DNA of 12,808 nt from Bacteroidota bacterium. GTDB taxonomy: Bacteria > Bacteroidota > Bacteroidia > B-17B0 > B-17BO. Within the stretch, counting starts at the first letter, position 1. Every line of letters begins with the position of its first letter. The stretch covers positions 1 to 12,808 of the forward strand of contig CANHPI010000038.1 in assembly GCA_947462425.1 (NCBI GenBank), given 5' to 3'. The notes under the pieces were generated by a model. That model did no database searches, was not told the origin of the DNA, and saw only the letters and a program-made list of their open reading frames with translations. Position numbers and translations under genes: made by a program. Shown piece by piece: positions 5,468-12,808 of the stretch.

Positions 5468-6949
5468 TTATCTTTTTCTTTTTGTATTTTCCTGAGTGTT
5501 TTTTGGAGTTGATCCACTTCGCGATTTATTTTGTGGTAAATTAGAAGGAGCTCGTTTTGGTTGTTCCATATTATATTTAATTGGGTTTTGTTGTTTCGGA
5601 TAATTTATTCTTTGATTAAATCTTGATTGTTTAATTACTGGATTTAAATGAGGGTAATAGTTTGGATTGTTTTGTAAAAACTCTGAACGTGTAATATTTC
5701 TTCCAAATACGCCTTTAGTACTGCTCTGATAATTCATTTCAAATCTTCCGAGTTCTTTTATACGTTTAGGTCTATTGTTATCTGCATTTAAATATCCTGT
5801 TGGTAAGTTGGGTTCATTTGCTTTTTCCCAACGATGTATCTCGCTATTAAAATCTGTACGTTGAAATCTTGGTCCGTAATGGTTATAATGATGCCCAATA
5901 CAGTAGTCCGAAAAGTTTGAATAATAGTAATGATGATGTGGGTTAAAAAAATACCAATGCATATAATAAGATGAGGGCAATCCAAAATATATTATCCCTG
6001 AAGCGCCCCAATAAAATCCTATATTATACCAATACGGATAAGGATACCAATATGGGAAGTCATACCAATAAGGATAACCAAACCAATACGGATATGGATT
6101 TACAGGTGTATTTAAGTTTGTTACGTTAATATTTATAATGTTTATAGTTTCATCGGAAGTTGAACTACTATAAATATCATCTTCAAAAGCATTACTCTTA
6201 TTTTCTTTATTTAAATATTCTTTTGCAACTTCTTCCATTTCTTTTTTTGCTTCCGGATTTTTTTCTAATCCGCTTATCCATTCTTTTTTTTCTTTTTCAG
6301 TTTGAATTTCTTGCTTTATTTTTATCGAATCCAGCATAAGTAAAGTATACTTGGGATCAGTAGTGTACATGTTTCCCAATATTACTGTGAGATGCATGTT
6401 TGAAGAAAGTGTATTTAGAATATCAGGATGGTTTATTAGTTTTTGAAAGGAGGCTTTGTTATTATTTGAGTATTCGCTAATTATTTTTTCGTATTCTTTA
6501 TTTGTGTTTATATATAAATTATTAATTGTTGAAAGTGTACTATAATTCTTTTGACCATATTTTAAAATTGAGGGCTGTATTTCTTCAGGATATTTATTGG
6601 CAATTAATTTTAATTCTTCTTTTGATTTTATTACACCAGTTACAATTTCAGAAATTAACTCAGGGTATCTAGTCATATTCCATAAGTTATTTTGATCTTC
6701 TTTACTATAATTATCTACTATATCCCGAAATGACTGACTAGAATTTTTCTGAAGCATTTCTGTTTTTATTAAAAACGATGGCTCTTGGCATCCCACTAAA
6801 ATATCTTTCCTTAAGCTATCAGGATAGCTTGCAATTTTGACTAAAGCAGTACTATCCTCCGAATTTAAATTATTCTCTAGGTTTTGTATGGTTTGACCTT
6901 TTATAATAATAGTAATTATGAAAGTAAATAGGAAGAATATATTTTTCAT
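5468..6949 (-). CDS. Exported protein with aromatic/proline/histidine-rich segment
   Basis: The 493-residue product starts with a signal peptide (hydrophobic residues 4-16, likely cleaved near residue 19) and should be exported to the periplasm or cell surface. Residues 20-250 are polar and mostly helical, with a charged possibly coiled stretch at about 207-250. An acidic/serine linker (255-270) leads to an unusual segment at about 284-360, packed with Tyr, Trp and Pro in PYWY-type units and then histidine (HHHYYY at 338-343, further His to 358). The tail (about 440-493) is rich in Pro, Asn, Gln, Lys and Arg and ends in TKRKR. Proteins with similar YPYW-rich cores occur in other Bacteroidota as I recall, but no biochemical role is known to me. 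No enzyme motif is visible. The aromatic/His cluster could bind carbohydrate, metal or wall material; this is speculation. Confidence 0.8.
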   Translation of the reverse strand: MKNIFFLFTFIITIIIKGQTIQNLENNLNSEDSTALVKIASYPDSLRKDILVGCQEPSFLIKTEMLQKNSSQSFRDIVDNYSKEDQNNLWNMTRYPELISEIVTGVIKSKEELKLIANKYPEEIQPSILKYGQKNYSTLSTINNLYINTNKEYEKIISEYSNNNKASFQKLINHPDILNTLSSNMHLTVILGNMYTTDPKYTLLMLDSIKIKQEIQTEKEKKEWISGLEKNPEAKKEMEEVAKEYLNKENKSNAFEDDIYSSSTSDETINIININVTNLNTPVNPYPYWFGYPYWYDFPYWYPYPYWYNIGFYWGASGIIYFGLPSSYYMHWYFFNPHHHYYYSNFSDYCIGHHYNHYGPRFQRTDFNSEIHRWEKANEPNLPTGYLNADNNRPKRIKELGRFEMNYQSSTKGVFGRNITRSEFLQNNPNYYPHLNPVIKQSRFNQRINYPKQQNPIKYNMEQPKRAPSNLPQNKSRSGSTPKNTQENTKRKR

Positions 6950-7155
6950 TATATAGTTTTAAAGTTTCATTATGTTAATAGATTTTCTTATACCTGGTAT
7001 GCAATATATTTTCACCAGTATTAATTTATTTATCTGATCTGTACTATTTTTAAATTGCAATTTTAGAAGCTACAAGGTTTATTTAGTTACTATTGACATG
7101 CAACAACTTCTTGCACAATATTAAATGTGGCTCATAGTATTATCAAACTACTCTG

Positions 7156-7171
7156 TCATTTTATAAAATGA
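7156..7171. repeat. Perfect 16-bp palindrome
   Basis: TCATTTTATAAAATGA reads the same on both strands without a mismatch. It shares its last four bases with the FNR-like site that begins at 7168. Perfect palindromes of this length without a spacer usually mark a dimer binding site rather than a transcript hairpin, but its AT-only core lowers the significance. Confidence 0.4.
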
Positions 7172-7181
7172 TTTGAATCAA
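7168..7181. promoter_or_regulatory. Candidate FNR-type binding site
   Basis: ATGATTTGAATCAA matches TTGAT-N4-ATCAA at 9 of 10 defined positions, with TGATT and AATCA as exact complementary arms. It lies about 150 bases before the baeRF-like gene and about 220 before the start of the exported protein gene on the other strand. It could serve either. It is the best FNR-like match seen in the window. Confidence 0.42.
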
Positions 7182-7330
7182 TTTGTTTTATTAGTTAAAA
7201 GTTATTAGGAATAAATTCATGATGTTTCAAATGAAAATAATTTTCTTTAAAAGAACTCACTTTACGTAATGCCTTAAATCATTTTTAAAAGCATTTACAG
7301 CTTATAGTTTCGTAAAAAAAACTAATTATT

Positions 7331-8464
7331 ATGAATGCAACTATCCTTGATGATTTGAATGTATTAGAAGAATTAAAAAACAATGTGTCAACTCCATGTG
7401 TGTCTGTCATTATTCCATCGCATAAAATAGCTCCTGATAAAGCCGTTGATAAATTAGAAGTAAAAAAAATGCTTAATAAAGCAAAGAAACTTGTATTTGA
7501 TAGCTATGGTTCAAAAAACGGAGGAGAAGAAATTACTAATAAGTTATTTAATCTTGCTGAAAATATCGATTATTTACATAATGATTTTGGGCTTGGTTTT
7601 TTTGTATCTCCCAATATTTCGCGTTTGGTTAAATTTCCATTTCATGTTAATGAGAAAGTAATTGTTGGAAAGAATTTTCAAATCAGAGATATGATTTATT
7701 TAGCTGAAACTATGATGAACTATTATGTTTTATCAATCAATGAAAAGGAAATTAAATTTTATGAAGGTAATGGCGAAAATTTGAAATTAGTAAATGATAA
7801 AGATTTTCCAATGCATTTTGTTGATGATTATGAATATACTCATGCTTCGTTGGGAAGTTCTTATGGTTATTCATTAAAATCTACAGAAAAAGATAAATCG
7901 ATTGTTAGAGAACAAAGATTGTTGGCATATTACAAAATTGCAGATGGAAAAATTTCGAAATACCTGATTAATCAAACACCACTTATATTAGCAGGCAGTA
8001 GTAAAGATTTAGGCTATTTTAAGAAAGTTTCTGCAAATTATAAGTTCGTTGTTGGTAAAGTAAATGGAAATTATATTTATGAGAATAATCAAAAAATTGG
8101 ACAACTTACTTTTGAAAAAATTAAAGAATATTTGAAAACAGAACAGGATAAATTAATAAAAAGACTAGAAGATGCAATTGGTAAAAAATTAGCTGTTTTT
8201 GGAATTGTAAATGTTTGGAAAGCATCAAAAGAAGGTAAGGGTTTAATTTTATTAGTTGAGAAGGATTATGAGATTTCAGGTTTTGTAACAGAGGACGATT
8301 CTGATATATTTCTTCATCCACCAAAGAAGTCACATCAAATTATTGAAGATGCTGTTGATGATGTTATGGAAACGGTGCTTGAAAAAAACGGTAAGGTCAT
8401 TATTGTTGAAAATGGAAAATTAAGCAAGTTTGAAGGCATAGCTTTGTTACTAAGATATTGGTAA
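7331..8464 (+). CDS. baeRF family 3-like protein (bacterial relative of the eRF1/aeRF1 fold)
   Basis: The 377-residue protein follows the layout of the baeRF_family3 group, predicted bacterial relatives of archaeo-eukaryotic release factors. Recognisable parts are the N-terminal PCVSVIIPSHK motif (22-32), FGLGFFVSPN (86-95), the strand pair ending in VGKNFQIRDMIYL (112-124), YYVLSINEKEIKFYEG (131-146), and the C-terminal GKVIIVENGKLSKFEGIALLLRY segment near 354-376, where the domain resembles the eL30/pelota C-domain. No GGQ tripeptide is present, so peptide release as in eRF1 is not indicated. A role in ribosome rescue or translational stress is proposed for the group, but I know of no direct experimental proof. 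The gene is preceded by an FNR-like site and is followed 143 bases later by a phosphate transporter gene. There is no signal peptide, so it should be cytoplasmic. Confidence 0.78.
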   Translation: MNATILDDLNVLEELKNNVSTPCVSVIIPSHKIAPDKAVDKLEVKKMLNKAKKLVFDSYGSKNGGEEITNKLFNLAENIDYLHNDFGLGFFVSPNISRLVKFPFHVNEKVIVGKNFQIRDMIYLAETMMNYYVLSINEKEIKFYEGNGENLKLVNDKDFPMHFVDDYEYTHASLGSSYGYSLKSTEKDKSIVREQRLLAYYKIADGKISKYLINQTPLILAGSSKDLGYFKKVSANYKFVVGKVNGNYIYENNQKIGQLTFEKIKEYLKTEQDKLIKRLEDAIGKKLAVFGIVNVWKASKEGKGLILLVEKDYEISGFVTEDDSDIFLHPPKKSHQIIEDAVDDVMETVLEKNGKVIIVENGKLSKFEGIALLLRYW

Positions 8465-8607
8465 TTATATATTTTTATAAATATTCATTATATCCTATAA
8501 ATTATAAAAATGGTGATTTACTTGATTCACATTTAATGTTTTTTTAATAACATATTTATTATGGTATTAAAACCATTCTATAATTCTTACTATACACTTT
8601 AAGGTAT

Positions 8608-10290
8608 ATGGAAATTCTCACTAATGTTTTTAAACTTTCTGCGGGAATTGGGTTATTTCTTTTTGCTATGTATTTGTTAGAAGAATCTTTAAAAAATCTT
8701 TCAGGACGGAATTTTAAACTATTTCTTCAACGTATTACAAAAAATAGAGTTGGAGCGGTTTCTGGTGGTGCACTAGTTACAGGAGTTCTTCAGAGTAGTT
8801 CAATGGTATCCTTATTGGTATTAGCATTTGTTGGTGCAGGTGTATTTACAATGAAAAATGCCTTAGCTATTATTTTAGGTGCTAATCTAGGCTCTACTTT
8901 TGGTAATTGGTTTGTTGCTACAATAGGCTTTAAATTTAATATAGAAATCATTGCCTATCCTGCGGTATGTTTAGGAGGATTATTACTTATTATTTATAGT
9001 AAGCGAGTAACAATTAAAAATATTTCATATTTACTTTTAGGATTTGGTTTATTATTTATTGCACTTTCTTTTATGAAAATAGCGGTAGAAGAGCAAGTTA
9101 AATTATTTGATTTTTCGAAATATCTTAATATGCCTTCTGTTTTTTTTCTCTTTATTGGTTTTTTTATTACATTATTAGTTCAATCAAGTTCTGTAACAAT
9201 GGCGCTTACTCTAGCGGCACTCAATGCAAATGTTATTCATGTTTTTTCGGCAGCATTAGTTATTTTAGGTTCAGAAACAGGAACAACTATTAAAATGGTA
9301 CTGGGGGCATTAGGAAGTAATACTTCCAAAAAAAGAATTGTATTTGGAAACTTAATTTTTAATATTTTCTTAACTTGTGTTTCTTTTATATTTTTAAAAT
9401 CAATTATTTTTTTAATTACCAATATTTTAAATATTACTGATCCTCTTATTGTTTTAGTGGCATTTTCAAGTATTATTAATTTATTTTCTATTATTATTTT
9501 TCTTCCTTTTTTAGATTACTTTGTGTTATTACTTGAAAAATTAATTAAAGATACTGATAGTTCAATTACCGCTTTTATTGGTCAAGCAAGTAATAATGAC
9601 CCCGAAACAGCATTAAACCTTTTTCAGAAAGAAACAGCTTATTTTATAAATAATTGTATGCTTTTTAATTTAGCTTTGTTTAAAATTGACACAACATTAT
9701 TTGAAGACATTTCAAATTTTAAAAATAGTAATCTGAAACAAAATTATTTTTCAAAATCATCAGAAGAAAAATATGAATTTTTGAAAAAACTTCAAGGCGA
9801 AATACACGTATCATATCTTGATATCAGATTAAAACTGCAAGGAACAAATAGTGCAAAAATTAATCGGTTGATTTCTTCTGTTCGAAGCGCTATGTATTCT
9901 GTTAAAAGTATTAAAGACATTGGAACTAATATCTCCAACCTTCAAAATTCTTCAAAAGATATTAAGTTTGATTTTTTCTTAGATCATAAAAAGGAAATTG
10001 AAAAATTGTACACTGAATTAAATGTGTTTTTAAAAGACAATCATAGGGTTAGTTATGAACTGCTTAAAAAGCTTTTTATCGACATTGAACATAATTACAG
10101 TTCATCACTTAATAATTTTTATACTAATACACAAAAAGTTTTAATTAACAATTTAGATATTACAACTGCTATTAATTTTAATCGTGAGTTATTTACTTCA
10201 AATAAAGCGCTATTGATGTCTGTAAAAGATTTTTTATTAGATGAAAAACTAGCTGAGGAATTTAATGAGATACCAGTTTACAGAACCTAG
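8608..10290 (+). CDS. Na+/phosphate cotransporter with C-terminal PhoU-like domain
   Basis: The 560-residue inner-membrane protein belongs to the NptA/YjbB type of Na+/Pi cotransporters. The membrane part (about 1-310) holds the duplicated signature of the family: QSSS at 62-65 (GVLQSSSMVS) and QSSS at 192-195 (LVQSSSVTM). Each is followed by a re-entrant motif, GANLGST at 91-97 and GSETGTT at 221-227. Strongly hydrophobic spans cover about 8-25, 66-95, 113-130, 140-156, 177-205, 211-222, 246-272 and 279-310. The soluble tail (about 335-555) is helical and charged like a PhoU domain. It would move phosphate across the membrane with sodium; the direction (uptake or efflux) cannot be told from sequence. 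The length is typical of the family. The ATG at 8608 leaves a short N-terminus before the first span. Confidence 0.92.
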   Translation: MEILTNVFKLSAGIGLFLFAMYLLEESLKNLSGRNFKLFLQRITKNRVGAVSGGALVTGVLQSSSMVSLLVLAFVGAGVFTMKNALAIILGANLGSTFGNWFVATIGFKFNIEIIAYPAVCLGGLLLIIYSKRVTIKNISYLLLGFGLLFIALSFMKIAVEEQVKLFDFSKYLNMPSVFFLFIGFFITLLVQSSSVTMALTLAALNANVIHVFSAALVILGSETGTTIKMVLGALGSNTSKKRIVFGNLIFNIFLTCVSFIFLKSIIFLITNILNITDPLIVLVAFSSIINLFSIIIFLPFLDYFVLLLEKLIKDTDSSITAFIGQASNNDPETALNLFQKETAYFINNCMLFNLALFKIDTTLFEDISNFKNSNLKQNYFSKSSEEKYEFLKKLQGEIHVSYLDIRLKLQGTNSAKINRLISSVRSAMYSVKSIKDIGTNISNLQNSSKDIKFDFFLDHKKEIEKLYTELNVFLKDNHRVSYELLKKLFIDIEHNYSSSLNNFYTNTQKVLINNLDITTAINFNRELFTSNKALLMSVKDFLLDEKLAEEFNEIPVYRT

Positions 10291-10432: not shown

Positions 10433-10870
10433 TTGAAAAACTTAAAAGATAATGCTAATACCATTGAAGCTTCCGAATCCGATTATCTTTATACAGCCTT
10501 GTCACAATTACCAAATTCTGGTAATGGTTTGTTTACAGCAATTTCCATTTATAAGGATGAAGTTATATCATTGTTTAAAGGAGAAATATTAACGGAGTTA
10601 CAAGCGAAATTAAGAGTAAAGCAAGGAAACGATAACTACTTTATTAATATGCTTGATGGCCGTATTATGGATTCGATGCACGTAAAATGTTTTGCTAAAT
10701 ATGCTAATGATGCTAAAGGTTTTTCTAAATCAAAATTTAAAAACTGTGCCAAAATTTCGTTAGATGAAGATGATAACGTTTGCATTATTGCTACTCGAAA
10801 TATAAAAATGGGGGAGGAGATATTTTGTGGCTACGGAAAGAAATATTGGATGAAACATATTTTGATTTAG
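10433..10870 (+). CDS. SET-domain protein (putative protein-lysine methyltransferase)
   Basis: The 145-residue protein is essentially one SET domain. The N-terminal G-x-G-L-F motif is visible as SGNGLFTA (29-36), followed by SLFKGEIL (46-53). The catalytic end reads IATRNIKMGEEIFCGYGKKYW (119-139), where GEEIF and YG correspond to the G-E-E-L / F-x-Y-G signature that binds S-adenosylmethionine and lysine. The N-H-S-C pseudoknot motif is replaced by YANDAKG (90-96), so the fold is kept with an altered cofactor-side motif. There is no ATG before residue 73. An in-frame stop at 10418-10420 limits the start to the short interval after it, and TTG at 10433 is the only conventional choice. The target protein is unknown. 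The cysteines are not arranged as a post-SET zinc cluster. Confidence 0.83.
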   Translation: MKNLKDNANTIEASESDYLYTALSQLPNSGNGLFTAISIYKDEVISLFKGEILTELQAKLRVKQGNDNYFINMLDGRIMDSMHVKCFAKYANDAKGFSKSKFKNCAKISLDEDDNVCIIATRNIKMGEEIFCGYGKKYWMKHILI

Positions 10871-11061: not shown

Positions 11062-11160
11062 AATACATATTAGTTTGGTTAATGATTACTTCACCATTGT
11101 TGAATTATAAGTAATGAGTTTAAAGTTCAGGAAAATCATCATCAAGTTCAAATAATACTC

Positions 11161-11250
11161 CGCGTTAGGGATTGCAGCGAAAATACTTTTTACGAGGCAC
11201 GAATAAAAAGATTGCAGCGTAAAGCCCGTCCGCCAGCTGGCGGAAACGCC
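11161..11250 (+). ncRNA. Structured RNA-like repeat element (Flavo-1-like pattern, tentative)
   Basis: The element can fold into a closed multi-branch structure. GCGTT (11162-11166) pairs with AACGC (11245-11249), GGG (11168-11170) can pair with CCC (11225-11227), CTTTTTA (11186-11192) pairs with TAAAAAG (11204-11210) around an 11-base loop, and TCCGCCAGCTGGCGGA (11229-11244) is a perfect 16-base palindrome. The 9-mer ATTGCAGCG occurs twice, at 11171-11179 and 11211-11219, flanking the central hairpin. It is clearly less AT-rich than its surroundings. From memory, the pattern 'GTTAGGGATTG-AGCG...AGCG-AAAGCCCG' recurs in many Bacteroidota genomes and may correspond to the Flavo-1 conserved RNA motif; I could not verify this. 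The + strand assignment rests on that resemblance. Confidence 0.45.
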
Positions 11251-11335
11251 CAAAAGATTTAAATTGTAATTTGCAACCAAAAAATGCTACAATTTATAGC
11301 ACAAACCAATGCTTGTTTGAGTTATTTTTATAAGC

Positions 11336-11896
11336 ATGTTTGCAATTATAGATATAGAAACCTGCGGGGGAAAATACGAGTACCGAAGAGGACGAATTAC
11401 AGAAATTTGCATTGCCATTCATGATGGCTTAAGGGTAGTTGAAAAATTTACCACACTCATAAATCCTGAATGTTATATTAGCCCTTACTTTATAAGTCTT
11501 TCTGGTATTACAAACGAAATGGTTGCCAAAGCTCCAAAGTTTCATGAAATTGCAAAAACAATTATTGATATGACGGAAGGCAAAATATTTGTGGCTCACA
11601 ATGTGGCATTTGATTATGGTTTTATAAAAGATGAATTTGCCGGTTTAGGTTATAAATACAAACGCGAAACATTATGCACCGTGCGGTTAAGCCGAAAATT
11701 AATGCCAGGTAAATTGTCTTACAGTTTAGGTAAGTTGTGCGATTCTATTGGTATTGATGTGCAAAACAGGCATAGGGCAGAGGGCGATGTTGATGCTACA
11801 ATACAATTATTTGATAGGTTGTTGGAATTAAAAAGTATGCATCCACAATTTAAAAATCAGGGTGTTGAGGATTTAATGACGCGCCGCATTGATTAA
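11336..11896 (+). CDS. DEDDh 3'-5' exonuclease (DNA polymerase III epsilon-like), first half of an interrupted fusion gene
   Basis: The 186-residue product is a complete DnaQ-like exonuclease domain. Exo I has D6 and E8 (IIDIETCG), Exo II has D93 (AHNVAFDYGF) and Exo III has H146 and D151 (HRAEGDVDAT), so all five metal-binding and catalytic DEDDh positions are present. It should hydrolyse 3' ends of DNA with two metal ions, in proofreading or repair. The ATG at 11336 places the Exo I motif right at the N-terminus, as usual. The ORF ends with a TAA at 11894-11896, directly after MTRRID. The same frame then continues, with no shift, into a GIY-YIG nuclease domain. In Bacteroidota I recall these two domains as one protein of about 460 residues, so this stop appears to interrupt a longer gene. 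Confidence 0.88.
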   Translation: MFAIIDIETCGGKYEYRRGRITEICIAIHDGLRVVEKFTTLINPECYISPYFISLSGITNEMVAKAPKFHEIAKTIIDMTEGKIFVAHNVAFDYGFIKDEFAGLGYKYKRETLCTVRLSRKLMPGKLSYSLGKLCDSIGIDVQNRHRAEGDVDATIQLFDRLLELKSMHPQFKNQGVEDLMTRRID

Positions 11897-12724
11897 ATAA
11901 AGCACTATATATTAAATAAGTTACCCGAGGCTTGTGGGGTTTATTACTTTTTAAATAAGGAGCAACAAATAATTTACATTGGTAAAAGTGTAAATATGTA
12001 TAACCGCGCCATGAGTCATTTTAATAGCAAAGAAAGTAAAGGAAAAAAAATGCTGAATGATTTATATAATGTTGATTTTGTAAAAACGGGAAGTGAACTC
12101 GTAGCTTTATTGCACGAGGCTCAAGAAATAAAAAGCCATAAGCCACACTATAATCGGATGCGCAAAGCAGATGTATTTACACACTGCATTGATTGGTTTA
12201 TGGACGATAATGGCATTATTAATTTTAAAATTGTGGAGTATGAAAATACGGTTAATACATTAGTATCGTTTGCTAATTATGCAACAGCTCGCGAACGAAT
12301 AGAAAATTGGATTGATGAATATGCGCTATGCTTAAGATACTGTCATTTAACGAGTGATGAAGCAATTTGTTTTAATCATCAGATAAAAAAATGTAATGGT
12401 ATTTGTGCAGGTGAAGAGGAAATTACAATTTATAATAAACGCGCTAAAGAAATTATGGATAGTATTATTTTTAAAAATGAACACTTTGCATTAATTGATC
12501 ATGGTAAAACACCCGAGGAACGCTCCATTATTTTAGTTGAGAACGGACATTATGTTGGTTATGGATATATTGACAGAACCGACACCTTTAGTTCGTTAGA
12601 AGAATGCCGAGCACTCGTCAATAAAGCAACGTTTTATCCAGATGCGGATGATTTAATTAGAGGTTTTTTAAAAACAAATAAATTAAAAACCATTGTATTT
12701 AAAAACATTAAGGAAGACTATTAA
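11897..12724 (+). CDS. GIY-YIG nuclease half of the interrupted exonuclease fusion, without its own start codon
   Basis: In the same frame as the exonuclease, 275 codons follow the TAA at 11894. Counted from 11897, they contain a GIY-YIG domain with GVYYF (14-18), YIGKS (27-31), the catalytic-type R37 in MYNRAMSHF and a glutamate in LLHEAQEIKSHKP (E74). A cysteine set at 145, 149, 158, 166 and 170 (CLRYC...CFNHQIKKCNGIC) recalls the region after the GIY-YIG domain in UvrC/Cho-like nucleases, which cut damaged DNA. There is no ATG, GTG or TTG before the ATG at 11996. Starting there would remove both the GVY and YIG strands and give a 242-residue product unlikely to be an active nuclease. An intact protein would need read-through of the stop or a near-cognate start. 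Without that, this half is effectively a pseudogene. Confidence 0.75.
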   Translation: MKHYILNKLPEACGVYYFLNKEQQIIYIGKSVNMYNRAMSHFNSKESKGKKMLNDLYNVDFVKTGSELVALLHEAQEIKSHKPHYNRMRKADVFTHCIDWFMDDNGIINFKIVEYENTVNTLVSFANYATARERIENWIDEYALCLRYCHLTSDEAICFNHQIKKCNGICAGEEEITIYNKRAKEIMDSIIFKNEHFALIDHGKTPEERSIILVENGHYVGYGYIDRTDTFSSLEECRALVNKATFYPDADDLIRGFLKTNKLKTIVFKNIKEDY

Positions 12725-12736
12725 TTTATCCGTGAA

Positions 12737-12808
12737 GTCATTCCGAGCTTGACTCGGAATCTAATACGTTAGTGCGATTGTGAGATGCTGAATCAAGTTC
12801 AGCATGAC
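12737..12808. repeat. Paired hairpin repeat with complementary loops (reaches the window edge)
   Basis: Hairpin 1 has arms ATTCCGAG (12740-12747) and CTCGGAAT (12753-12760) with loop CTTGA. Hairpin 2 has arms ATGCTGAA (12785-12792) and TTCAGCAT (12798-12805) with loop TCAAG, the exact complement of loop 1. A small hairpin CTAA-TACG-TTAG (12761-12772) lies between. The unit starts with GTCAT and ends with ATGAC, giving it an overall inverted layout. The GTCATTCCGAG / TTCAGCATGAC style is that of a dispersed intergenic palindromic repeat. It begins 12 bases after the stop codon of the GIY-YIG frame and could also serve as a 3' end structure. Confidence 0.65.

Follow-up and report, generated by a model that had tools for sequence, protein, structure and literature searches.

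The 12,808-nucleotide stretch of Bacteroidota DNA analysed here, referred to below as the window, comes from an uncultured lineage and carries a gene that by sequence comparison is a copy of a widespread, known exonuclease/GIY-YIG fusion, a DNA-repair nuclease, cut in two by a single stop codon. At slightly better than even chances, this stop is real, a nonsense codon that arose very recently where the GIY-YIG module begins in a known gene of the Cho+Exo type. Since the close relatives examined are all intact, the split most likely stems from a recent mutation of the ordinary kind or from an error in assembly, rather than from a new mechanism.

The exonuclease and the GIY-YIG region lie in the same frame with a single TAA between them, as the first-pass annotation had proposed and our frame check confirmed. 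The TAA at 11894-11896 (+ strand, codon 187) is the sole in-frame stop from the start at 11336 to the terminal stop at 12722-12724, and the full conceptual frame, including the stop position, comprises 462 codons. The first open reading frame (11336-11896, +) ends at this TAA and encodes 186 residues. Its 186 sense codons (11336..11893, +) form a DEDDh 3'-5' exonuclease half, with the domain at residues 4-159 and a flexible linker at about 169-177, and contain an entire RNase_T/DEDDh domain (Pfam PF00929, full length, 108.9 bits). Behind the stop, the open frame 11897..12724 (+) holds a UvrC/Cho-type GIY-YIG half (PF01541, 32.4 bits, over the cut-off), a Cys-rich segment and a C-terminal domain; at the base composition of the window, the chance of a 275-codon run staying open is near 1e-11. 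The NCBIfam Cho model covers residues 5-259 of this post-stop frame with 97.9 bits, under its cut-off of 367, and the UvrC model also matches it, below its whole-protein cut-off. The catalytic motifs had been said to be kept on both sides of the stop and indeed D6, E8, D93, H146 and D151, which we take to be the catalytic residues of the exonuclease half, as well as Y203, Y214, R224, E261 and N273, presumably those of the GIY-YIG half, are all present. Four cysteines, C332, C345, C353 and C357, are also present in the window and are invariant in 34 of 34 alignment rows; in our own reading, they correspond to the C4 region of the Cho+Exo type.

The structural placement of the stop was read from an AlphaFold2 model of the intact relative P0001 (mean pLDDT 79.3), whose pTM of 0.53 makes the relative placing of the domains unsure. 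In this model, helix 148-168 closes the exonuclease domain and is followed by a poorly ordered linker (pLDDT below 50 at 172-181), while codon 187 falls within helix 178-195, which leads into the GIY-YIG sheet. The solved GIY-YIG structures of UvrC N-domains align with P0001 from residue 187 or 193. Past the stop, the first ATG opens an ORF of 242 codons (11996..12724, +) that is devoid of the nuclease-core strands 201-206 and 212-218; according to the P0001 model and Pfam, a restart at this ATG would drop both core strands of the GIY-YIG domain, and the ORF has no Pfam match at E 0.001. No ATG, GTG or TTG occurs among the 33 in-frame codons of 11897-11995, exactly as had been noted before.

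This domain order resembles that of two subfamilies among the UvrC-like GIY-YIG nucleases, named Cho+Exo and Cho-like+Exo (Dunin-Horkawicz et al. 2006, PMC1564403), which combine an N-terminal epsilon-type exonuclease, a UvrC/Cho-type GIY-YIG domain, a Cys-rich segment and a C-terminal domain. The paper places these subfamilies in Betaproteobacteria and Actinobacteria, whereas the window gene comes from Bacteroidota; the string "bacteroid" has no occurrence in the text of PMC1564403. The mechanism put forward there was proposed for mycobacterial proteins, and for the window gene we only infer it. Whereas the Cho+Exo type is one polypeptide, as are the close relatives of the window gene, a stop divides the copy in the window. 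Among the NCBIfam models, P0001 is best matched by NF005906 (PRK07883, DEDD exonuclease domain-containing protein), which spans both domains with 252.5 bits but stays under its cut-off of 495 bits; with 462 residues, P0001 is about 100 residues shorter than this model (563).

Searches with the GIY-YIG half as query matched 987 proteins among 1374 candidates, and 110 of the 120 matches listed carry both the exonuclease and the GIY-YIG domain, the exonuclease domain being missing from the other 10. Codon 187 encodes Lys in 17 of 17 full-length fusions among the matches listed (459-463 residues, with 94-99% identity in the GIY-YIG half). A sense codon is likewise found at this position in all 24 loci retrieved from assembled genomes (12 Lys, 11 Asn and 1 Ser), including L013, whose contig has no more than 6 codons ahead of the matched stretch. 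In a 34-row fusion alignment, with rows chosen from the 120 matches listed, Lys187 is invariant; it is nearly invariant in a 36-row version, from which the former differs by the removal of two genome-derived rows. The GIY-YIG half is present in 50 of 87 genomes of the family of G001, the nearest genome, at E 1e-30. Retrieval around exonuclease matches gave 36 loci, 30 of them whole fusions and 6 short genes, with all 6 of the latter in genomes of the genus of G001. No relative was found in the viral contig collection searched. Collectively, these comparisons bear out the view of an interrupted fusion taken by the first-pass annotation: the relatives examined make one polypeptide of about 460 residues and have a sense codon at the stop position, and the alignment to fusions of related genomes, which it had suggested as a check, gave no stop at codon 187 in the 24 loci or the 17 close full-length copies.

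To estimate the age of the stop, we used a close set of 21 sequences (the window, L001 and P0001-P0019), two of which are partial. Only two residue changes are private to the window in this set, the stop at codon 187 and D194N, and these are no more than 22 bases apart; the intact full-length copies of the set have 0 to 7 private changes each. In the comparison with G001, where substitutions were counted without assignment to either lineage, dN/dS is 0.044 upstream of the stop (2 nonsynonymous and 11 synonymous changes) and 0.081 downstream of it (9 and 23). This comparison of synonymous and non-synonymous change past the stop had been proposed earlier, and it indicates a well-kept frame. Apart from one private change, no further lesion and, with the dN/dS of 0.081, no relaxed selection was seen behind the stop as a sign of decay. 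Since the downstream half bears no sign that selection has been absent for any length of time, the stop should be either very young or not in the organism. Of the former suggestion that the break is recent or tolerated, the first part stands in the form of a recent stop or an artefact, given the few private changes and the low dN/dS, while tolerance only could be the case, in view of natural exonuclease-only relatives.

If the nonsense codon is real, translation would end at 11896 and would yield the full DEDDh exonuclease and its linker in 186 residues, and the endonuclease half would not be made. Here we presume that the DNA of the cell carries the stop, that the truncated protein is stable and that no endonuclease activity remains. 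To the main competing explanation, a technical artefact, we grant somewhat less than an even chance: the contig, presumably a metagenomic one and possibly derived from merged strains, would carry a consensus or assembly error, and the gene of the organism would be intact. The sense codon at position 187 in the 17 listed close full-length copies and the 24 genome loci speaks for such an error, and it is also in line with a very young mutation. No sister assembly sharing the stop came to light, which counts against a real allele. The private changes would also fit an assembly fault, being only two and at most 22 bases apart, as would the location of the gene in a segment at the window end, past a step in identity at a repeat edge. 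Furthermore, a recent study reports that a large share of the pseudogenes with internal stops in assemblies arise from faulty assembly (Cooley and Wright 2024, PMC11017572), which lends this explanation some weight. On the other hand, the eight other complete ORFs of the window argue against a high error rate, as six of them have Pfam matches that span the whole profile or almost all of it. Asn at codon 194 is natural in the more distant relatives P0027, P0031 and P0121. The differences from G001 around the stop (7 in 48 bases) were considered as a possible cluster, but the permutation test was not significant (p 0.099).

The segment in question, 11154..12808 (+), makes up the last 1.65 kb of the window, contains the stop and is 97% identical to contig C43 of G001 (locus L001). 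The syntenic genes at 5743-10280 occur in the same order on C43, with 69-72% identity of DNA and 60-67% of protein. Thus, identity to G001 jumps from about 70% to 97% at 11154, between neighbouring syntenic genes and where a dispersed repeat of the genus (11159..11254, +) has its left edge; a second dispersed repeat family occurs at the window end (12781-12808). Both the jump at a repeat edge, which makes a mosaic assembly possible, and the second repeat at the end are in line with an artefact. By these data, the terminal segment has another ancestry, or possibly another origin, than the rest of the window, and real recombination between species and an assembly mosaic both fit the jump at 11154. 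The same two genes are adjacent in the window and in G001, which argues against a random join. The gap between the aligned stretches measures about 870 bases in the window, with a SET-domain gene inside, versus about 170 in G001. The G+C content rises at the gene from 0.266 to 0.331 in the window and, by a smaller step, from 0.283 to 0.327 in G001; since G001 shows a similar step, we rejected G+C as a sign of a chimera.

Several features of the surrounding DNA were recorded in passing. The two repeat families at 11159-11254 and 12781-12808 have many copies in genomes of this genus. The SET-domain gene (10433-10870) lies between a Na/Pi symporter gene and the fusion gene and encodes a protein of 145 residues (Pfam SET, 45 bits) that also matches a Dot/Icm effector model of NCBIfam, if weakly (32.9 bits versus a cut-off of 550). 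It is missing at the syntenic site of G001, but 10 of the 20 genus genomes contain similar DNA at E 1e-20. The gene at 7331-8464 encodes a baeRF family 3 protein (Pfam), which reaches 240.4 of the 330 bits needed for the NCBIfam ribosome hibernation factor model and is thus below the cut-off; it adjoins the Na/Pi symporter gene, in the same order as in G001 and, by positions, in G017. Among the other complete ORFs, 5468-6949 has only a weak Pfam match, under the cut-off, and 2398-2814 has none. On casual inspection, no further broken gene was noticed in the window.

Programmed read-through or re-initiation, by which the gene would produce a short exonuclease together with a little fusion or separate endonuclease, is very improbable. 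The well-kept downstream frame would fit such recoding, but it is equally expected of a young mutation. Besides, the stop is not conserved (it occurs in none of the 24 genome loci and in none of the 17 close full-length proteins), the RNA shows no stable fold over the 101 bases that begin with the stop (no better than shuffles, z -0.55), TAA terminates six of the eight other complete ORFs, with TAG at the other two, and no ordinary in-frame start precedes the core strands. At gathering scores, no Rfam family was found in the window. Nonsense mutation, read-through, re-initiation and error had all been listed at the outset as possible accounts; a young nonsense codon or an artefact is favoured by our data, and read-through and re-initiation are left without positive support.

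It is hardly credible, either, that this lineage naturally keeps the two halves as separate genes. The protein database does contain pieces corresponding to one half, the exonuclease domain is missing from 10 of the 120 matches listed, and the pairs P0138/P0263 and P0232/P0255 seem to lie each on one contig, as judged from equal contig sizes alone (15719 and 4062); yet 110 of those 120 matches have both domains, the starts of the C-terminal pieces are spread over the whole gene and for the most part fall on Met codons, and P0123, P0138 and P0232 have unlike tails, as expected of separate breaks. These two pairs, each of an exonuclease piece and a GIY-YIG piece, suggest other interrupted fusions with different breaks. 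Of the pieces reaching the C-terminus, 84 in all, 14 begin at Met221, about what a rough reckoning predicts from a 40-residue Met-free stretch. A break hot spot at the junction was therefore rejected, the excess at Met221 not being clear with starts on Met codons all along the gene. For the same reason, P0019 (242 residues, 97% identity), which begins at the ATG matching 11996, was dropped as a sign of a shared stop.

Coming back to a real nonsense codon, natural exonuclease-only relatives exist, so loss of the endonuclease half could be tolerated. Among 20 genomes of the genus of G001, six have the fusion, six have an exonuclease-only gene, none has both, and eight have neither at the cut-offs used, a number that may be inflated by incomplete assemblies; the GIY-YIG module was not found in 14 of the 20 (E 1e-30). 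The natural short exonucleases have about 170 residues, and others of 184-208 residues keep the linker motif and then end, though some of these could owe their ends to contig edges. Such stand-alone Bacteroidia 3'-5' exonucleases are the nearest known counterparts of the expected product of the window, but they have ends of their own, whereas the window exonuclease groups with three fusions (support 100/97) in a tree that covers 80 exonuclease domains, from the window, 36 loci of genomes and 43 hand-picked database proteins. The window also sits among fusions in an earlier tree of 60 domains, from which minus-strand loci had been left out. The 80-domain tree needs three changes between fusion and short forms, two of them forced by well-supported branches; it is not rootable, and hence gain and loss of the domain are not told apart. 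In two genomes examined, the neighbourhood of the short genes differs from that of the fusion in G012, so these genes are not necessarily shortened versions of the gene at the place of the window. On a tentative and rather unlikely reading, the window has caught a lineage at the first step of shedding its endonuclease half. Given that the module was not found in 14 of 20 genomes, that exonuclease-only relatives exist, some of those outside the genus with the linker kept, and that the stop lies near the ends of the short forms, the domain boundary may, on this reading, be a repeated loss point at which a working exonuclease is left.

Here a striking split fusion comes down to a single stop, young or spurious, in a gene already known, which calls for caution. 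If the stop is real, the window gene would offer a natural single-mutation test of the exonuclease half without its GIY-YIG partner.
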